DNA of 38,257 bases, from positions 1 to 38,257 of the forward strand of contig JAUSES010000048.1 in NCBI GenBank assembly GCA_030649835.1, written 5' to 3'. The notes beneath the pieces were generated by a model. It ran no database searches. It worked only from the letters and a program-made list of their open reading frames with translations, and was not told the DNA's origin. Below, piece after piece: positions 2,680 to 29,423 of the stretch (position 1 is the stretch's first letter; every line of letters starts with the position of its first letter). The position numbers and the translations under genes were made by a program. Source of the stretch: a bacterium (GTDB taxonomy: Bacteria > Patescibacteriota > Minisyncoccia > Phycocordibacterales > UBA1550).

Positions 2680-3351
2680 ATGGCAACATCAAATATACAA
2701 AAACGAACAGGAGTAAACATTAACGACTTATCTCGCAAGCGGAAGCTACTTGCTTTGGAGATGAAGAAACCACCTCAGAAGATAGCCACACCTCCTATTT
2801 TTACCCCCTCAGTGCCTCGCACAGCAAAGCTAAAAGGTAGACCCATACTTTCCCTAAAGAAAGCCGATTTAGCCGATAAAAAAGAGAAATCCCTGTTCAA
2901 GTTTTTAGACGATAGTGGAGTTGAGCAACCCGATAAACTCCTTGTATTTGTTCGTTGGTTCGGTCTACCTAGAAAGTTAAGGAAGCCCGAGACGCAGGAG
3001 AAGCTGGGAGAGAAAATCGGTATACACAAAGATACCTTTGCTAATTGGAAACGCCGAGCTGGATTTTGGAAGGAGGTTAGTTTGTATAGCAATAACTATT
3101 TTCTTTCTCACGCCCCCGATGTCTACTACGCATTGGTTCAGTACGCCATAAAAACTGGAGACCCTAGTGCAGTAAAACTCTATGCTCAACGCTTTGAGGG
3201 TTGGAGCGAGAAGATACGCACTGAAGATGAAACACCAGAGAAGGAACTTGACCCAGAGTTGAAATCCGCAATCGCTTTGGCAATCAAAAACATCGGTCTT
3301 GCTTCCATTCTCAAAAATTACGAACAGAGCGATGTTGAGGAAACAGAGTAA
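2680..3351 (+). CDS. Helix-turn-helix protein resembling phBC6A51 / small terminase-type proteins
   Basis: The protein has 223 residues. The first 60 or so are basic and low in structure. Residues 105-126 (TQEKLGEKIGIHKDTFANWK) form a helix-turn-helix. A helical C-terminal part (YALVQYAIKTGDPSAVKLYA, about 150-170) follows, with an acidic tail. The HTH-then-'ALVQYAIKTGDPSAVKLYAQ' layout matches my recollection of phBC6A51-type proteins and small terminase-like DNA-recognition proteins. A DNA-binding role in a phage or integrative element is likely, but which one cannot be settled. It is the first gene inside the accessory block and is alone on its transcript. Confidence 0.65.
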   Translation: MATSNIQKRTGVNINDLSRKRKLLALEMKKPPQKIATPPIFTPSVPRTAKLKGRPILSLKKADLADKKEKSLFKFLDDSGVEQPDKLLVFVRWFGLPRKLRKPETQEKLGEKIGIHKDTFANWKRRAGFWKEVSLYSNNYFLSHAPDVYYALVQYAIKTGDPSAVKLYAQRFEGWSEKIRTEDETPEKELDPELKSAIALAIKNIGLASILKNYEQSDVEETE

Positions 3352-3430
3352 AGTTGTCCACAGCGAGCAACTCGTATCTCTTTACGTTTTCTATTCGGTA
3401 GCAAGTGCCACAAAATATTACTAAAAATCA

Positions 3431-3459
3431 TTGAATATATCGTTATTTTTTGGTAAAAT
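3431..3459 (+). promoter_or_regulatory. Sigma-70-type promoter for the structured leader/RNA
   Basis: A -35 TTGAAT (3431-3436), a 17-bp spacer and a -10 TAAAAT (3454-3459) predict a transcription start near 3466. That is about 230 nt ahead of the ATG at 3698 and directly before the multi-hairpin region. Confidence 0.6.
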
Positions 3460-3465
3460 ATACTT

Positions 3466-3683
3466 ACAACTAAATAAGTTGGAGACCTAACCCTTGTGGA
3501 TTTTCTACAAGGTATGGTTTCAAAATCGCGTTCAACATAAAAACCCTGTCATTAGGGCGTTGAACGCGTTGCAAGGGGAAACCTTTGTAGGGGGTCGCAA
3601 GACCCTTCCTAGTGGCAGGATTTTTGTGTATCAAAAACCTGCTATTCAAACAATCACCTTGTCGGAGGTGTTTGATTAGTAAA
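3466..3683 (+). ncRNA. Candidate structured RNA or long 5' leader
   Basis: Several independent stems follow one another. (a) 3491-3511: CCTTGTGGA/TTTCTACAAGG type, 9 bp with a 3-nt loop. (b) About 3516-3521 GGTTTC pairs with about 3579-3584 GAAACC and encloses the 10-bp perfect stem CGCGTTCAAC/GTTGAACGCG. (c) 3588-3611: TAGG+GGGTC, GCAA tetraloop, GACCC+CCTA, with a TT bulge. (d) GCAGG...TTTTTG with CAAAAACCTGC at 3614-3641. (e) CACCT/AGGTG near 3656-3670. A promoter sits immediately upstream. I recognise no known RNA class. It may be an independent RNA or the leader of the downstream repeat protein. Confidence 0.6.
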
Positions 3684-3697
3684 ACCATTATCTAATT

Positions 3698-4339
3698 ATG
3701 GAACAGCAGGTAAATAAATCTTTTTGGAAAAGTAAAAAGTTTCTATACGGGCTTGGTATTTTTTTCGCCCTTGGAATTATCGTGGACATATTTGACGGAA
3801 GCCCTGTACCAGCAGTGCAACAAACAGCAACTCAACCTGTTCAAAAAACTGAACAAGTTGTGGTAGAAAATAAAAATATAAAACCTGCATCTGTTGTAGC
3901 AAAAGTTACAACCACCACTTCGCCCACCCCAGCGAAGACGGAAACAAAAACTGCCATTGCAACAACCCAAGCACCTGCTCCTGCTCCTCAAACAGACAGG
4001 GATAGCGTACTTGTGATATTAAAAGCAAATGCTTCTACAAAATGGGGTACTGATTATCAAATGGTTCAATTTGAATATAATAATCAGGTTTTAGCTTATG
4101 ACTGGGTAGTGGCGCAGACAAAATATCCAGCCATTATGACTAAAGCAAAAAATAAATGGGGCAATGATTACCAAATGGTGAAGTTTGAATATAGCAACCA
4201 AGTTGAAGCGTACGAATGGATAATGGTGCAGACAGCGTACCCCAACATTATGACTAGTGCAAAACAAAAGTGGGGAGATGATTATCAAATGGTGAAGTTT
4301 GAATACACCAATCAGGTTGAAGCATATAAGAGTTTGTAG
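3698..4339 (+). CDS. Membrane-anchored protein with 38-residue tandem repeats, unknown function
   Basis: The 213-residue protein has an N-terminal signal anchor at about residues 14-32 (FLYGLGIFFALGIIVDIF). A long Thr/Pro/Lys/Ala-rich linker (about 35-100) follows, typical of an exported spacer. The C-terminal half is two full repeats and one truncated repeat of the pattern KWGxDYQMVxFEYxNQVxAYxW...QTxYPxIMTxAK, at about residues 115-152, 153-190 and 191-213. The repeats are nearly identical in protein and DNA, so they arose by recent duplication. The topology predicts the repeats outside the membrane or on the cell surface. The upstream promoter and structured leader probably belong to this gene. 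Family not recognised. Confidence 0.75.
   Translation: MEQQVNKSFWKSKKFLYGLGIFFALGIIVDIFDGSPVPAVQQTATQPVQKTEQVVVENKNIKPASVVAKVTTTTSPTPAKTETKTAIATTQAPAPAPQTDRDSVLVILKANASTKWGTDYQMVQFEYNNQVLAYDWVVAQTKYPAIMTKAKNKWGNDYQMVKFEYSNQVEAYEWIMVQTAYPNIMTSAKQKWGDDYQMVKFEYTNQVEAYKSL
4040..4336 (+). repeat. Tandem 114-bp coding repeats (2.6 copies)
   Basis: Units at about 4040-4153, 4154-4267 and 4268-4336 share long identical blocks around the codons for GDDYQMVKFEY and NQVEAY. They are exactly in phase with the reading frame, so copy-number change would lengthen or shorten the protein by 38 residues without a frameshift. Confidence 0.85.
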
Positions 4340-9791: not shown

Positions 9792-11726
9792 CTAATGCAC
9801 ATAGTTTTTGAGGTACAACCTTGTAATCTTCTGGGTATTGATATTCTTCTTGTATCGTAAAAATGTATGCTTCTTTTTCTTCAATCTTTTTTTCTTTTCA
9901 GTAAGCAAACCATCTGAAATCGGTTTATAAGCCCTAAGTGCTTTTGTTATCGCTGGACGAAACTTACTTTCATCTCCTCTGCGGACATCCTTAATAAATA
10001 TCTTGTACCAGTAAATATGGTCATCTTGTAAAACTGTCTTAAACCAAACACGGAGTGCCTGTTTTAGTACCGACCAAGAACGAGCTACATTTGAGTATTT
10101 TGCTTTGTCGTCTTCTTGCTCCCTTAAAACTTGATAGCAAAGATAATTAAAAGTTTTTTCAATATCACTTACCGACATTTCAAGAGAAACATCGCTACCT
10201 TTCTTTCGGAAATCAAAAGCAAGATTGTCATAATCCTCAAAGCGAGCATTTGCTACAACTTCATTTACTAAAGTATCCTTAAGGTCTAAACCCGCCTTTT
10301 TCAATTTCGCTTCTGCCTTTCCTAAAATATCGCTATTTGTAATTTTAAAATGTTTATTGAGTTCTGTTCTAAATACTTCTTGAAACTTTGAAGACACGCG
10401 AATATCACCGTAATCCAAGCGAGAAATATAATCGGATGGTAGCTCTATATTGCTTACTCCTTTCTTTCTATAAGCAAACTCGGTTAGGGGTTTATTTGCA
10501 GGATTTTGGTCGGGTATTATTACTTCCTTACGCTTGTAGTTTGTATACAAATAACCTAAGCGAAGGTTGGGATTGTTTTTATAATCTTCTTTGTCTTGAG
10601 GTTCAGGCATTCTCAAAATACGCCCAACAGTTTGAGTATAAAAAGTATTTGATTGTATCTCTCTGAACATTACGAGCACTGATGCACGAGGACAATCCCA
10701 GCCAGTACCTGCTGTTTGTTTGAAAAGAAGAAAATCGTGTTCGTCGTTATTATCTTCTAACCCCTTCGGTCGTGGGTTTTTATCAAACCATCTCGCTATC
10801 CTATGCGCAGGTATTTTGTTCCTAAGAAGATACTCCATAACAATATCTTCTTTTTTCTGTTCGCCTTTTTCTACAAGTTTACTATCATCATTTGGTAGCT
10901 GTATGAGCATTAAAGGGTTTATGTCTTTCCCAAGTGCCTTGAGTTCTGCTTTTAATTCTTCGCGCTTCTTTATTCCATTTTCAAGAAGCACCTTATCAAG
11001 GTCTTTACCAGACATACCCTCAAAATCTTCTTTTGTTTGAGTAACAATGGCTTCCTTGATTAAACCTTGTTCAACGACTTCTACCCGTGGGACTTCACAA
11101 AAACTACCGAGACGACGAGCTTCAAGCTCATCTTTTTCATTAGGTGTTGCCGTAATGTGAATAATTACCTTAGGGTCAATTTTGTCAATAATATCCTTTG
11201 CAAGTTTTGTATCTTTATTTTTATGAGCTTCATCAATTATCAAGATAATTTGTCTGCCATCTGCTTGGGTTTGTTCAATTACATCTTCAAAATATTTTCC
11301 TGTTTCCTTTTGCCATTCTACATCTTCGGGGCGACGAAGTATTCTTGTTTCAGCACTTTTAGCAATAACTTTTTGCCAGTTCAAAAATAAAATATCATTT
11401 TGATAGAGTTTGCCCTGATTTATATCTGCAACAGTCAATGCTCGGTTCTCAAGCATATTTTCAAAATACTCAAGAAACTTATTTTTGCTTTGCATTGCCA
11501 AGTCATCACTGAAAGTAATCCAAATAAACGCCTTATCTTCTTTCCATTGTGGTAGGTGGTTAAGCCCACGAATGAAAAGAGAGGTCATAAAGGTCTTACC
11601 ACTTCCAGTTGGCGACTTGAACACAATAGGTAATTGTCTATCATTTTGCTTCCACACCGAAACAAACATATCTGTTATATTTGCTACGGCATCTTTTTGA
11701 AACTTTGATGGATTAAATGTTTTCAT
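9792..11726 (-). CDS. Type III restriction subunit Res, helicase part (frameshifted)
   Basis: These 644 residues are the superfamily-2 ATPase/translocase portion of Res. Walker A is SPTGSGKT (about 38-45), motif II is DEAH (165-168) and motif III is TATPNE. QTVGRILRMPEP is motif VI. With Mod, Res cuts DNA after ATP-driven communication between sites. The genuine sequence ends near residue 612. Beyond the seven-base homopolymer at 9887-9893 the frame is wrong and terminates early in a Lys-rich artefactual tail. The start codon is 2 bp after the Mod stop, as usual for mod-res operons. Confidence 0.93.
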   Translation of the reverse strand: MKTFNPSKFQKDAVANITDMFVSVWKQNDRQLPIVFKSPTGSGKTFMTSLFIRGLNHLPQWKEDKAFIWITFSDDLAMQSKNKFLEYFENMLENRALTVADINQGKLYQNDILFLNWQKVIAKSAETRILRRPEDVEWQKETGKYFEDVIEQTQADGRQIILIIDEAHKNKDTKLAKDIIDKIDPKVIIHITATPNEKDELEARRLGSFCEVPRVEVVEQGLIKEAIVTQTKEDFEGMSGKDLDKVLLENGIKKREELKAELKALGKDINPLMLIQLPNDDSKLVEKGEQKKEDIVMEYLLRNKIPAHRIARWFDKNPRPKGLEDNNDEHDFLLFKQTAGTGWDCPRASVLVMFREIQSNTFYTQTVGRILRMPEPQDKEDYKNNPNLRLGYLYTNYKRKEVIIPDQNPANKPLTEFAYRKKGVSNIELPSDYISRLDYGDIRVSSKFQEVFRTELNKHFKITNSDILGKAEAKLKKAGLDLKDTLVNEVVANARFEDYDNLAFDFRKKGSDVSLEMSVSDIEKTFNYLCYQVLREQEDDKAKYSNVARSWSVLKQALRVWFKTVLQDDHIYWYKIFIKDVRRGDESKFRPAITKALRAYKPISDGLLTEKKKRLKKKKHTFLRYKKNINTQKITRLYLKNYVH

Positions 11727-11728
11727 AG

Positions 11729-13075
11729 CTAAATAATGTTGTATATCTGCTTGTATATCTCAAGAATTGGTTGCGGTATTGTTTTGAGGTTGATATTTTT
11801 GTTATCTTCAAAATCAATAATTTCTACTTTTTCCTCCCAGCTAAACATATACACTGTTACTGGTTTTTTGAGAGACAGGACTTCTTTTGCAAACTCATCA
11901 AGTTGGTCTTGTTCTTCTCGAAAATATACAGCTGTCATTCTTTCCCTGCTTTCAAATATCTGCCAGTGGGCATTCTTTTTTATTTGCTCCAATGTGTTTT
12001 CAGCTATCGCAAGCATTTCACCTGCGTGATGAGCAAGTTGAATTTTGTCCTTATCATCTGCATCAAGAATGTTGTGCTTGCCAACAAATGCGGTTTTGTA
12101 GTATTTTACTGAATTTCCCAATCCCTCCCTTTTTTCTTTTACATTTTTCTCTCCATAAACTATAATTTTATTATCATCAATTTCTTTGATTATTTTTTCA
12201 AACTGCATTGACCTCTTATTTTCTTCCTCAATTTCCTTTACTTCACTTAATATCCCATCTGTATTCTTTAGACTAGAAAAAGAAAGATTTTCTTCATATA
12301 GAGTTTCAGTGATTTTCCCAGAGAAGTTGTATCCTTTGATAATTTTTTCAACTCTAGGGTAACAAACCTCCTCCATTATCTTACCTTCATTGTTTGTTAC
12401 AAGTATAAACTGACGTTGCCCGTCATCCTCTGCATTTTTTTCTAATACTGCTTGAGCTGTTGTTCCTGAACCAGCAAAAAAATCTAGAACGATAGCTTCA
12501 GGATTATCTATAGATTTTATTATCTCTTTGACTAATTCTACAGGTTTTGGATAAGGAAAAACGTTATCTTTTCCAAGTATTTGGTCAAGTATTTGTTTAC
12601 CTAACTCATTGTAACCTGCATCTAGCCAAAGGTTGGTATGAACATTCCTTGAGTTTTCATCTCTATAAGATTTTTCGTTTGGGAAGCCATTTGAGTTAAC
12701 AAAAAGTCTATTGTCGTTAATTACTTTCTGGAACTCTCCATTCGTGTTCGTTTTACACCATTGTCCATCAATACGAACGTCGTTTTGTAAAATGCTATTT
12801 TTTACTACTGGTTCATCAAGAAGCTCGATGTATGCGAGTATATTTCTCTTACCTTTTATTTTTCCCTTATTCCAGTTTTTACAATCTATAAAAGTACCCT
12901 TTGGAATAACTTGTACTCTCCGCGGACGACTATCGAATTTAAATAAAGGAGTTGGCTTGTATGTCCCTCTTTCATCGGTTTTTGTTCCAGTCATTGGGCG
13001 AACAAGTTTAATGGGTATTTTGGAAAAATAGACAAGTAAAAAATTCGGCACTTTCTGAAATAGTTTTTGATGCAT
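11729..13075 (-). CDS. Type III DNA methyltransferase Mod, C-terminal part (frameshifted)
   Basis: This frame holds the second half of Mod. VLDFFAGSGTTAQAV is the SAM-binding motif I (FxGxG). PYPKPVELVKEII and YFREEQDQLDEF are typical of the C-terminal region of Type III Mod enzymes. The first 10 or so residues of the open frame (MHQKLFQKVP) are an artefact of reading upstream of the frameshift; true homology starts at NFLLVYFSKIPIKLVRP. Motif IV lies upstream in the other fragment, so the motif order (IV before I) is the beta class used by Type III N6-adenine methyltransferases. Confidence 0.9.
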   Translation of the reverse strand: MHQKLFQKVPNFLLVYFSKIPIKLVRPMTGTKTDERGTYKPTPLFKFDSRPRRVQVIPKGTFIDCKNWNKGKIKGKRNILAYIELLDEPVVKNSILQNDVRIDGQWCKTNTNGEFQKVINDNRLFVNSNGFPNEKSYRDENSRNVHTNLWLDAGYNELGKQILDQILGKDNVFPYPKPVELVKEIIKSIDNPEAIVLDFFAGSGTTAQAVLEKNAEDDGQRQFILVTNNEGKIMEEVCYPRVEKIIKGYNFSGKITETLYEENLSFSSLKNTDGILSEVKEIEEENKRSMQFEKIIKEIDDNKIIVYGEKNVKEKREGLGNSVKYYKTAFVGKHNILDADDKDKIQLAHHAGEMLAIAENTLEQIKKNAHWQIFESRERMTAVYFREEQDQLDEFAKEVLSLKKPVTVYMFSWEEKVEIIDFEDNKNINLKTIPQPILEIYKQIYNII

Positions 13076-13667
13076 TTTGAGGTTTTTGATTTTTTTTCCA
13101 GTGAATTATATTATGTTCTGGTTTTTCGTTAAAAATATCATCACAAAGAAGTTTTAATTGAGCTATTTCATCATTTCCTATAGAAATGAAAATTACACCT
13201 GTATCCTTAAGCAGTGATTTTGCAAGTTCAAGACGCTTTCGCATAAATGAAAGCCAATAACTGTGTCTGAATGGGTGGTCTTTTGGTACTTCAGTGCCAT
13301 CAGGATATTGGTCTAGAACTCTTTTATCTTTATACCTAAATCCATCTTGTCCAGTGTTGTATGGAGGGTCAATATAAATCACATCAATCTTTCCCTTGTG
13401 GGTATAGTTCAAGCAAGTAAGGGCGTGATAATTATCGCCCTCAATAAGAATATGTGTTGGCTTATCGTCTTTACTCTTGATTGCCTTTTTAGGTACTTCT
13501 TCAAGAATAGGTAATTTATTTTCAACATCATCTTCAAATGCTTCGGGTACATCAAGCCACACTAAACCATAGCGTTGAGTTTTGACTGCCTTTTTCCACT
13601 TCTCAATTTCTTTTTCAAGCTTAAGAATTTGATTTTCTTTTTGTTGTAACAATTCTTTTTCAGTCAT
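13008..13667 (-). CDS. Type III DNA methyltransferase Mod, N-terminal part (frameshifted)
   Basis: These 219 residues begin with a coiled coil (LLQQKENQILKLEKEIEKWK) and contain the catalytic motif IV, IYIDPPYNTG. Further family-typical segments are ILIEGDNYHALTCLNYTHKG and SYWLSFMRKRLELAKSLLKD. It modifies adenine at an asymmetric site and gives sequence specificity to Res. The true frame leaves this ORF at the six-base A-run 13038-13043 (plus strand). Removing one base joins it to the C-terminal part, giving about 645 residues, a normal Mod length. It starts 2 bp after the HTH gene. Confidence 0.92.
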   Translation of the reverse strand: MTEKELLQQKENQILKLEKEIEKWKKAVKTQRYGLVWLDVPEAFEDDVENKLPILEEVPKKAIKSKDDKPTHILIEGDNYHALTCLNYTHKGKIDVIYIDPPYNTGQDGFRYKDKRVLDQYPDGTEVPKDHPFRHSYWLSFMRKRLELAKSLLKDTGVIFISIGNDEIAQLKLLCDDIFNEKPEHNIIHWKKNQKPQNASKTISESAEFFTCLFFQNTH

Positions 13668-14079: not shown

Positions 14080-14334
14080 ATGATAACTTTTGCCGAACAC
14101 AAAAAAACTCTTGAAGCAAAAGGCATATACCTACCCGACAAGGAGGTAGAGAAACTTTTGGCTACCCAATATAAGTTTGCAAACGCCTTTTTTGATTTTT
14201 GGGTAATGAAAACTAAGCCAGATGTTGTAATAGAAAAAAGCATTGTTGTTCACAAGAATGTAACAGTACACACAAAAAATGGTAATTGTGTCTCTGTTGA
14301 GAGTTACACCTTCGCATATGCCTACTCCTACTAA
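14080..14334 (+). CDS. Small protein of unknown function upstream of the serine recombinase
   Basis: About 84 residues from the ATG at 14080; a TTG start at 14068 is also possible. The N-terminal part is helical and charged (FAEHKKTLEAKGIYLPDKEV, then EKLLATQY). The C-terminal part alternates Val and charged residues, suggesting beta strands. It follows a good -10/-35 pair and overlaps the recombinase start by 17 bp, so the two are translated together. No family recognised. Confidence 0.6.
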   Translation: MITFAEHKKTLEAKGIYLPDKEVEKLLATQYKFANAFFDFWVMKTKPDVVIEKSIVVHKNVTVHTKNGNCVSVESYTFAYAYSY

Positions 14335-16054
14335 CACAAAACAAGAAAACTGTTTACTGGATTGCAGAGTAAGCGACCCACTTCAACTCAAAGGCGGTAG
14401 CTTGGAGTTACAGGAAATGCTTGGTAGAAAACTTGCTGAAAAACAGGGATGGAAGGTCATTAAAGTTTACAGACAACCTCACTCCGCCACCACAACCGAA
14501 CGTGATGACATAGAGGAGATTGAGGAGTTCATAAAAAGCACGGAGATAAAAGTTCATCACATTATTTTCAAGTGCATAGACAGGTTTACGAGAGAGGGGT
14601 CTTCAGAATATGAGAGGCGGAAGGTACGCTTGGAGAAACTGGGAGTACAGGTTTGGGATACACAGGGCATTATCCAACCGAAGAAAAATACCCTTGAACA
14701 TCTTGGGGATTTCAAATACAAGTGGAGTTACTACTCACCCAGCGAAGGAGCAGAAATGCTGGCAGCACATCAAGGGAAACAGGAGTGGAGAGACATCATA
14801 AACCGTCTCATCGGTGCAGAAATACAACTTGTTCGCGCAGGTTATTCGGTTAGAAGAGCACCCGATGGTTTGAAGAATAAGATAGTTCTTGTTGGAAGTA
14901 AGGAGTACACATCAAGAGAAGCAAATATTGCTCGCTCTCATTTCTTTGTGGAAATGATGGAACTCCGCGCTAGGGGGATGGATGATAAGGATATAGTTGA
15001 GCGGATAAATGCGATGGGTTTTCGTACTCAAACGTATAGGCATTGGGACAGAACAGATAAAGAGCATCCAGTAGTAATCGGTAAGCACGGTGGAAAGTTG
15101 CTTACAGTAAAGCAATTACAGCGATTTGTTCAATGTACTGAATATGCAGGAGTAACTTGCGAGAAATGGACACACTATAAGCCAGTGCGGATGCAGGAGT
15201 TTCGCGGGATTGTATCAATAGAAACATTCAACCTCGCAAATCGTGGCAAAGTTTACATAAAGGAAAATCCTGATGGAAGTTTGGAGATTTTGCGTGATTA
15301 CGAGAAGTATTTAAATGAAAAACCGAAACGGTTGAAAAATAACCCTGATTATCGCTATAAGTTTTTTCCTTGTCCAATCTGTAGTAAGTCAATGTTGGGT
15401 AGTAGTTCTAAGGGTAAATCTGGTGCGCATTATTCAGCATATCATTGTGGAGGTGCTACAAGCGGTGCGAGAGCGCATAAGTATGTTCGCTTTCCAAAGG
15501 AGGAATACGAAAACTCAATACAAAAGTTCATCGTTGCACTGAAGTTTACAGGGGTAATGGTAGATAGCTTTGGAAAAGTCCTAAATGATGTTTACCTTAC
15601 ACGAGAAAAAGAGGTTGTCGCTCAATCTTCAATGATTAGCCATAATGTTGGTGGCTTGAAGGCGCAACAGGCATCAGCGCTAGACACGCTCACTGTTACT
15701 CAGAGTGCAGTTACTCGTAAGAAGTTGGAGGAGAAGATTGATGACCTTGAACGACAGATACAGGAGGCAGAGGGGCAACGTGATGAAATAGAAGTGAACG
15801 AGAAAGACATTAAGGCATTTGTGAAATATGTAAAAACAATAATGGAACACCCATCAGAAATCCTTATGGATACTGACAGTATGCACGCTCAACAAATACT
15901 ATTTGGTCTTGTTTTTGATGAACTTCCAACCTACCCAGAAATACTTAATGGAACACCAAAACTATCGCTTGCTTTCAAGCTATCTGAAGATTATATAAAC
16001 CCAAACTCCCAATGTGTGACCCCACGGGGAGTCGAACCCCGCTTTAAAGCTTGA
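14318..16054 (+). CDS. Large serine recombinase (site-specific integrase)
   Basis: About 578 residues from the ATG at 14318. The catalytic serine is in LLDCRVSD (S19), and the resolvase-fold motif DRFTREGSS follows. A recombinase domain is next (about 180-300), then a zinc-ribbon pattern FFPCPICSK...YHC, and a C-terminal coiled coil (KLEEKIDDLERQIQEAEGQR). It catalyses integration and excision through double-strand exchange. The last 13 or so residues (TPRGVEPRF) are simply the antisense of tRNA-Glu, and the TGA stop is inside the tRNA. The native C-terminus was therefore probably altered by integration. Upstream it is coupled to a small protein. Confidence 0.93.
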   Translation: MPTPTNTKQENCLLDCRVSDPLQLKGGSLELQEMLGRKLAEKQGWKVIKVYRQPHSATTTERDDIEEIEEFIKSTEIKVHHIIFKCIDRFTREGSSEYERRKVRLEKLGVQVWDTQGIIQPKKNTLEHLGDFKYKWSYYSPSEGAEMLAAHQGKQEWRDIINRLIGAEIQLVRAGYSVRRAPDGLKNKIVLVGSKEYTSREANIARSHFFVEMMELRARGMDDKDIVERINAMGFRTQTYRHWDRTDKEHPVVIGKHGGKLLTVKQLQRFVQCTEYAGVTCEKWTHYKPVRMQEFRGIVSIETFNLANRGKVYIKENPDGSLEILRDYEKYLNEKPKRLKNNPDYRYKFFPCPICSKSMLGSSSKGKSGAHYSAYHCGGATSGARAHKYVRFPKEEYENSIQKFIVALKFTGVMVDSFGKVLNDVYLTREKEVVAQSSMISHNVGGLKAQQASALDTLTVTQSAVTRKKLEEKIDDLERQIQEAEGQRDEIEVNEKDIKAFVKYVKTIMEHPSEILMDTDSMHAQQILFGLVFDELPTYPEILNGTPKLSLAFKLSEDYINPNSQCVTPRGVEPRFKA

Positions 16055-16088
16055 AAAGCTTTCGTCCTAACCGATAGACGATGGGGCC
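16017..16088 (-). tRNA. tRNA-Glu (TTC)
   Basis: Read on the minus strand, the acceptor GGCCCCA pairs with TGGGGTC (one G-U). The D arm and T arm (GGGGTTCGACTCCCC) are intact. The anticodon stem AAAGC/GCTTT closes the loop TTTTCAA, giving anticodon TTC. The CCA end is not encoded. Its 3' half is overlapped in antisense by the serine recombinase gene, pointing to this tRNA as the attachment site. Confidence 0.95.
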
Positions 16089-16882: not shown

Positions 16883-16956
16883 GGGCGATTAGCTCAGATG
16901 GTTAGAGCGTTACATTGACATTGTAAAGGTCGGAGGTTCGATTCCCCCATCGCCCA
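16883..16956 (+). tRNA. tRNA-Val (GAC)
   Basis: GGGCGAT pairs with ATCGCCC. The D arm is AGCTCAGATGGTTAGAGC. The anticodon stem TTACA/TGTAA encloses TTGACAT, giving anticodon GAC. The T arm is GGAGGTTCGATTCCCC. CCA is not encoded. Its last 11 bases overlap a downstream repeat/hairpin structure. Confidence 0.96.
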
Positions 16957-17129
16957 CAATAAAGACACTGGAAAAGTGTTTTTATTGTGGGCGATGAACA
17001 AGCCAACTGCTTGGCTTGTGTGGGGAATCGAAAGCCGGAACATGTCGCAATGTGACAGTGAGGCAGGGTCGCGAGTACTTATGAGCGAAGCGAATTAGTA
17101 ACTTGTGACCGAGACCCCATCGCCCACAA
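16945..17129. repeat. tRNA-Val 3'-end duplication with an inverted copy between
   Basis: CCCCATCGCCCACAA occurs at 16945-16959 (tRNA 3' end) and again at 17115-17129, with an inverted TTGTGGGCGATG at 16985-16996. The first and inverted copies form a 19-bp stem (16951-16969 with 16975-16993, one mismatch, 5-nt loop). A further hairpin ACAAGCCA/TGGCTTGT follows. 17030-17115 carries the AGTTACTAA dispersed repeat in reverse orientation. The direct repeats resemble attL/attR of a lost or decayed insertion. Confidence 0.7.
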
Positions 17130-22100: not shown

Positions 22101-22239
22101 CCCAAAACTAAAATCCCGCATTTGCTCGCGATAGCCAAGCGAGCGAGCGAAACGAAAGTACCAACTTTCATTTCCGAGCGAGCGCAGGCTATATTTTACC
22201 TAGTTATATAGCGAGCAAATGCGGGATTTTAGTTTTGGG
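22101..22239. repeat. Long intergenic palindrome between convergent genes
   Basis: A 29-bp perfect inverted repeat (22101-22129 with 22211-22239) begins CCCAAAACTAAAATCCCGCA. The interior folds further: ATAGCC/GGCTAT, GCGAGCG/CGAGCGC and GAAA.GAAAGT/ACTTTC.TTTC. Transcribed from either side it gives one long hairpin, so it probably terminates or stabilises both transcripts. The inner CGAGCGAAA...TTTCCGAGC arms recur in the 32834-32901 element. Confidence 0.85.
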
Positions 22240-29179: not shown

Positions 29180-29380
29180 ATGGGACAAGAAAATTTTGAT
29201 AATATAGGTCTAGACCCATTACAGGAGCATGAAGTTAGCCCAACTGATAGTGATGGAATGATGGCTCACAAAGTTCTCACTGATGAGGAACTCGCTGGAG
29301 CACTCGATACAGGATTTGCAAGTAGACCAGGATTTGAAGAAGAGCACAATCAAATTGATCCCACTGAATTAATGCACTAA
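29180..29380 (+). CDS. Small acidic protein, unknown function
   Basis: The 66-residue acidic protein (many Asp/Glu, MGQENFDNIGLDPLQEHEVS) has no membrane segment or known motif. A good promoter lies upstream and a perfect bidirectional hairpin includes its stop codon. Its last residues (LMH) and those of the facing gene (TMH) are encoded within that same palindrome. No family recognised. Confidence 0.6.
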   Translation: MGQENFDNIGLDPLQEHEVSPTDSDGMMAHKVLTDEELAGALDTGFASRPGFEEEHNQIDPTELMH

Positions 29381-29423
29381 AATAAATGAGCTCCCATTTG
29401 GGAGCTCATTTATTTTAGTGCAT
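29372..29423. terminator. Perfect 24-bp palindrome, bidirectional terminator
   Basis: ATGCACTAAAATAAATGAGC is the start of a 24-bp arm (29372-29395) that pairs perfectly with 29400-29423 around a 4-nt loop. The stop codons of both convergent small genes fall inside it. A-rich on one side and T-rich on the other, it works as a terminator in either direction. Confidence 0.9.

Follow-up and report, generated by a model that had tools for sequence, protein, structure and literature searches.

The C4-type RNAs of P1, P7, N15 and P4/PhiR73 carry a short block that is complementary to the leader or start region of the gene that follows (PMC7567579, PMC8198154). The inter-inverted-repeat (IIR) transcript of the Vibrio PLE satellites, an abundant noncoding RNA of a mobile element, is complementary to leaders of the element's own genes (PMC7567579). 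The RNA analysed here lies in a window of 38,257 nucleotides, the whole stretch of DNA that was examined, and is a member of another known family, LOOT. The Rfam model RF03000 matches it over its full length (model 1-121) with 83.3 bits against a gathering threshold of 46.4 (E 1.9e-14), including all four stems P1-P4 and the covarying P2. The earlier note had described a multi-hairpin RNA that matched no class its author could name; an Rfam search supplied the name. Rfam types RF03000 as 'Gene; sRNA' and attaches no function to it, and no functional study of LOOT was found in the literature covered. The C4 model (RF01695) matched nothing in the window, nothing at 3300-3800 with the threshold relaxed to E <= 10, and none of eight further LOOT loci. 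By Rfam LOOT is not a C4 RNA, nor is it one by gene content: the Pfam and PHROG families listed for the downstream genes include no antirepressor. The features of the locus are as follows.

3431-3459, + strand: promoter, with -35 TTGAAT (3431-3436), a 17-bp spacer and an extended -10 TAAAAT (3454-3459); pattern scan
3466-3476, + strand: conserved motif ACAACUAAAUA at the probable transcript start (consensus in the family: ACAACUGAAUA), 6-7 nt 3' of the -10 box; family alignment
3484-3607, + strand: LOOT RNA, Rfam RF03000
3484-3519, + strand: P1, outer GACC/GGUU (3484-3487/3516-3519) and inner CCUUGUG/UACAAGG (3492-3498/3506-3512); Rfam alignment, RNAfold
3527-3568, + strand: P2, with the 10-bp variable stem P2a CGCGUUCAAC/GUUGAACGCG (3527-3536/3559-3568); Rfam alignment
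3537-3558, + strand: P2 loop, with the covarying inner hairpin P2b CCCU/AGGG (3544-3547/3554-3557)
3570-3589, + strand: P3, UGCAAGGG-GAAA-CCUUUGUA; Rfam alignment, RNAfold
3590-3607, + strand: P4, GGGGGUC-GCAA-GACCCUU; Rfam alignment, RNAfold
3608-3627, + strand: 3' tail CCUAGUGGCAGGAUUUUUGU, beyond the Rfam model, with a U5 run at 3621-3625; covariation, minimum-energy fold
3698-4339, + strand: downstream gene for a 213-aa protein with an N-terminal membrane segment and three 38-residue repeats; list of open reading frames
14279-16054, + strand: large serine recombinase (Resolvase PF00239, E 1e-7), its 3' end overlapping tRNA-Glu (16016-16088, - strand)

The source genome carries three LOOT copies. 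The nearest relatives of a window protein, at up to 90-92% identity, belong to Candidatus Yonathbacteria (Parcubacteria/Paceibacterota); the host is a Yonathbacteria-like Patescibacterium. LOOT was present in 23 of 61 close relatives, in 159 of 397 sampled genomes of the order (~40%) and in 83 of 380 sampled genomes of the phylum (22%), with up to seven copies per genome; none of 14 control genomes searched was positive, and eight IMG/VR contigs showed the LOOT pattern. The presence is patchy within one genus and therefore suggests that LOOT is mobile. The family comparisons drew on ~155 copies from Patescibacteria. A first set had 115 loci; an independent set of 40 was retrieved later from other parts of the phylum.

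The multiple independent stems seen before are present far beyond chance: the 165-nt RNA at 3466-3630 folds with -75 kcal/mol (z = -9.2), a stability that none of 200 dinucleotide shuffles equalled, and for the 232-nt stretch 3466-3697 the folding z is -7.8. In a scan of 918 windows over the 38 kb, comparable stability was reached in only a few other places, and those inspected were simple long inverted repeats. Long near-perfect inverted repeats, with stems of roughly 20-33 bp, lie between genes at 2361-2408, 22101-22239 and 29375-29420; they are among the window's most stable folds and share no mutual similarity. Of the individual helices singled out in the earlier note, the 10-bp perfect stem is P2a, and the GCAA-capped helix exists as P4, with 7 bp by the family model in place of 9. 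The enclosing GGTTTC/GAAACC helix is not a helix of the family: GGUUUC forms the outer P1 with GAGACC at 3482-3487, and GGGAAAC belongs to P3 as its conserved tip. A further hairpin at ~3647-3676 falls outside the conserved RNA, and the proposed extent of ~210 nt contracts to a predicted conserved transcript of ~165 nt, from 3466 to ~3630 with the U-run at its end. The overall reading, a promoter-driven noncoding RNA of many stems ahead of the repeat-protein gene, is supported by family alignments in which the stems covary and the reading frame is not conserved. The relatives thus do not keep a protein frame at the expense of pairing; the phase of the internal-AUG frame is spread 26/21/19. Relative to AUGG the loop stop falls in random phase, and no short leader reading frame is conserved. 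Leader-peptide attenuation was considered for the conserved GGCAUGGNGAAAA, which resembles a start, and was rejected, as its frame and stop are not conserved.

The promoter is as it had been described, with the 17-bp spacing and a TG preceding TAAAAT. In the 111 aligned LOOT loci, an extended -10 TGnTATAAT is conserved together with a weak -35 TT. The start motif occurs in 111 of 115 loci, usually 14-22 nt upstream of the LOOT model start, and 8 of its first 10 positions exceed 1 bit. Because of its distance to the -10 box, this motif is very probably the 5' end of the RNA, and we infer that the leader is transcribed from there.

At its other end, the conserved RNA extends ~20 nt past the Rfam model into a tail that ends in U5 and has ACCCAUGUGGUGGGCUUUUUGU as its commonest family form. 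When the P2 loops and tails of 111 loci were aligned separately and blind to structure, the column pairs with the highest mutual information fell on one antiparallel diagonal. The tail and the P2 apical loop form a helix of 16-20 bp that is near 100% paired and uses all Watson-Crick types. Most positions are 98-100% paired, against shuffled means down to 0.41-0.46 at the variable ones, where compensatory changes are seen (for example AU 52, CG 35, GC 18, UA 3). The pairing score of a loop with its own tail was 35.6 compared with 21.2 ± 0.6 for swapped tails, and 29.7 compared with 19.4 ± 0.7 in the 40 independent loci; kinship of the sequences can inflate shuffle statistics of this kind, but many distinct compensatory haplotypes argue against it. 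Two U.G pairs and one A.C mismatch within the helix are themselves conserved, the loop U : tail G pairs being kept in 108 and 71 of ~110 loci on the + strand only. In the window, the tail pairs with the P2 loop (3537-3556) at 19 of 20 positions, with a single C.A mismatch at 3544/3620. Locus L177, on an IMG/VR contig, is an outlying case: this divergent LOOT differs strongly in its P2 loop, and its tail has changed along with the loop. The long loop:tail helix takes up the 5' side of P2b, so that only one of the two can form at a time; pairing of the tail with just the tip of the P2b loop could, however, leave P2b closed. For the window's sequence, the loop:tail helix is part of the minimum-energy fold, whereas the centroid computed for the longer stretch (3466-3697) has P2 closed in its place. 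LOOT has the layout of an intrinsic-terminator attenuator: a GC-rich loop:tail helix and U5 stand before a gene and compete with an earlier P2b/P2 helix.

A second possible pairing lies at the start of the next gene. Within a zone 15-165 nt after LOOT, the P2 5' arm is repeated exactly over at least 9 nt (9-13 nt) in 41 of 115 loci, compared with ~1 for swapped arms and 1 for the inverted control, and nearly all of these repeats end 0-7 nt upstream of the next gene's ATG. The independent set has the repeat in 8 of 40 loci, 7 of them at the start codon. Because the complement of the P2 3' arm thereby recurs before the ATG, this arm could cover the start region in repeat-bearing loci; the modelled pairing is -16.4 kcal/mol in loci with the repeat and -2.9 in those without, in duplex energies that ignore pseudoknot and loop penalties. 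A candidate C4-like antisense block against the downstream start is present in ~40 of 115 LOOT loci. The window lacks the start-codon repeat, and loci without an exact repeat have no degenerate one either (pairing 10.5 versus 10.0 for swaps): the repeat is all-or-none. Locus L167 has, some 3.3 kb downstream of its LOOT, a shrunken LOOT-like relic whose P1 end and P2 5' arm lead directly into an ATG, with the P2 word CCGTCCAA in tandem.

Identity between the start-codon repeat and the P2 5' arm would also be expected if LOOT were mainly a trans-acting antisense or immunity RNA of the type of C4 of P1/P7 or the CI RNA of P4. In this reading a short RNA, released from the leader by cleavage or termination, would pair through its P2 loop and 3' arm with the tails and start-codon repeats that other LOOT-led messages with its specificity carry. 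Such leader complementarity is known for the RNAs of P1, P7, N15, P4 and PhiR73 (PMC7567579), and superinfection immunity and exclusion families occur among the genes downstream of LOOT. P2 arm words moreover recur across unrelated genomes without the P1 expected from common descent: 90 of 6517 pairs between genomes share at least 9 nt of P2a, and only 2 of the 90 also share P1. The words CCTATCAAGC, CCAGTAACGA and CCCGCTAGAG are instances without matching P1 (loci L032-L174), and these recurring words have a common CC....AAG-like pattern. Three results weigh on the other side and make this explanation rather doubtful in our view. The same P2 word shows no excess elsewhere in the surrounding kilobases, where trans targets were sought (94 matches versus 59-97 in controls). 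Copies within one genome mostly have different P2 arms (1 of 38 pairs sharing), with neither avoidance nor sharing beyond chance. Finally, the order loop - 3' arm - tail - repeat is that of a cis pseudoknot rather than of a continuous antisense duplex.

The position of LOOT relative to genes bears on whether it is a leader at all. An ATG follows LOOT by no more than 300 nt in 110 of 115 loci (median distance 56 nt); in the window, the ATG of the 213-aa gene is 90 nt past the end of the LOOT model. Were LOOT a free-standing structured sRNA or a protein-binding RNA, with the loop:tail helix as a 3' closing pseudoknot and terminator and the downstream gene incidental, this proximity would be hard to explain, as would the ~40 leaders with a P2-arm repeat exactly at the start. 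The class given by Rfam, the RNA's own promoter, the U-run at the helix end and the retention of the loop:tail helix in loci without the start-codon repeat all speak for such an RNA, which we nevertheless consider unlikely.

The downstream proteins are mutually unrelated, with a mean column identity of 4%. The 110 proteins together carry 40 Pfam families, none represented more than four times, and the 213-aa repeat protein of the window belongs to no Pfam family. N6/N4 methylases, staphylococcal nucleases, superinfection-immunity and superinfection-exclusion families and PADLOC candidate defence families are among them; these defence-like families are listed as occurrences, with no enrichment for defence claimed. 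Conserved single-stranded segments (ACAACUGAAUA, CCUAAAC..GCAUGG and GGGAAAC) beside a bistable P2/tail would suit a classical riboswitch in which P1, P3 and P4 bind a metabolite and P2/tail serves as the expression platform. With no common pathway among the downstream genes, we regard a riboswitch as very improbable.

The surroundings of LOOT point to mobile elements. A large serine recombinase (PF07508) is found no more than 10 kb away from 26 of 37 LOOT copies, where 2.3 were expected, and 25 of these 26 share one divergent layout, with the recombinase upstream on the opposite strand. The recombinase in the window departs from this layout, being downstream of LOOT on the + strand. Its last residues (CVTPRGVEPRFKA) are encoded by the antisense of tRNA-Glu; the overlap suggests integration at the tRNA gene, and recombinase and tRNA-Glu together probably mark the end of the mobile element that carries the window LOOT. 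No att-site repeat of tRNA-Glu of at least 14 nt was found in the window. A small alkyltransferase-like neighbour (1427-1687) was tried as a marker of the empty site and set aside, as no more than 3 of the 16 genomes in the genus have it. Directly after tRNA-Val (16883-16957), an inverted copy of the tRNA 3' part (GGTTCGATTCCCCCATCGCCCACAATAAA...) at 16920-17030 forms a very stable hairpin and could be a recombination scar. At 11729-13667, adjoining a helicase-like gene (9792-11726), a type III-style DNA methylase-like gene is split into two overlapping frames near 13008-13075, through a frameshift, phase variation or an assembly error. The mobile context and the diverse cargo behind a constant leader would also fit a recombination site at the DNA level, an attI/attC-like folded single strand with the repeat before the ATG as cassette junction. 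That reading is barely credible: the G.U pairs conserved only on the + strand favour RNA, promoter and start motif are conserved, and the spacing of the repeat is tied to the ATG.

Our preferred reading, to which we give about even credence, is that an integrative mobile element of Patescibacteria carries LOOT, together with the tail left out of its model, as the promoter-driven 5' leader of a cargo gene, in many loci one with a link to phage defence, and that this leader acts as an RNA switch. In fold A, P2 would be closed by pairing of its 5' and 3' arms, with P2b inside. In fold B, the P2 loop would pair with the tail in the 16-20 bp helix, which ends in A-U pairs over U5 and resembles an intrinsic terminator, and P2 would be open. 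The tail ends in a U-run as an intrinsic terminator does, and an attenuator is therefore proposed, with start-codon blocking as an optional second level. Fold B would end transcription at ~3630, giving the RNA of ~165 nt, or stall it. In repeat-bearing loci it would also free the P2 3' arm to pair with the repeat and block translation, either in cis or in trans from the terminated RNA. Given the order 5' arm - loop - 3' arm - P3 - P4 - tail - repeat - ATG, the loop:tail and 3' arm:repeat pairings would form a single H-type pseudoknot opposed to closed P2. Closed P2 would thus be ON and open P2 OFF, with some trigger presumably shifting the balance. Since the window copy has the tail and no start-codon repeat, only the termination half could apply there. 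Against the leader switch, about 60% of loci, the window included, have no start-codon repeat, which is thus not universal; the conserved A.C mismatch adjoining the U-run (16% paired) is odd for a terminator optimised for strength; and the downstream genes share no common function that would hint at a trigger or ligand.

More tentatively, LOOT may represent a phylum-wide class of mobile-element switches, in which one leader shuts off defence or superinfection-exclusion cargo by termination and start-codon covering and the variable P2 arm sets the pairing specificity, possibly between elements in the manner of an immunity group. With the tail helix and the start-codon repeat, LOOT changes from an orphan sRNA into a candidate leader switch that offers defined base pairs for mutation, and the family is placed in serine-recombinase elements that carry defence-like cargo. 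If the switch holds, it would amount to a general control of cargo expression by mobile elements of Patescibacteria.

Compared with known systems, the window RNA is like LOOT RF03000 in its full-length match, four stems and Patescibacterial host. The RF03000 model, with 121 positions, stops at P4; the promoter and start motif, the start-codon repeat and the 3' tail with its pairing to the loop all lie outside it. Together with the link to serine recombinases, the tail helix and the start-codon repeat appear to be new here: none of the three is part of the Rfam model and no description of them was found in the literature covered, although an earlier report is possible. LOOT as modelled is like intrinsic-terminator attenuators in having mutually exclusive helices before a gene, the later one GC-rich with a U-run. 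It differs from them in having no leader peptide and in where the 5' half of the putative terminator comes from: an earlier hairpin supplies it with its apical loop, P3 and P4 lying in the ~60 nt between. With the IIR transcript, LOOT shares a mobile-element origin and complementarity to leaders, which in LOOT is limited to its own downstream leader. It is unlike the C4, N15 and P4 RNAs in its fold, in its cargo of many kinds where theirs is an antirepressor, and in the window copy's want of a start-codon block. Like C4 (RF01695) and the N15 and P4/PhiR73 RNAs, it is a promoter-driven leader of mobile elements, with a candidate complementary block in ~40 of 115 loci, trans action and processing being hypothetical in LOOT. 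By analogy, LOOT would resemble in its operation the leader-complementary RNAs of P1, P7, N15 and P4, possibly also in acting in trans.
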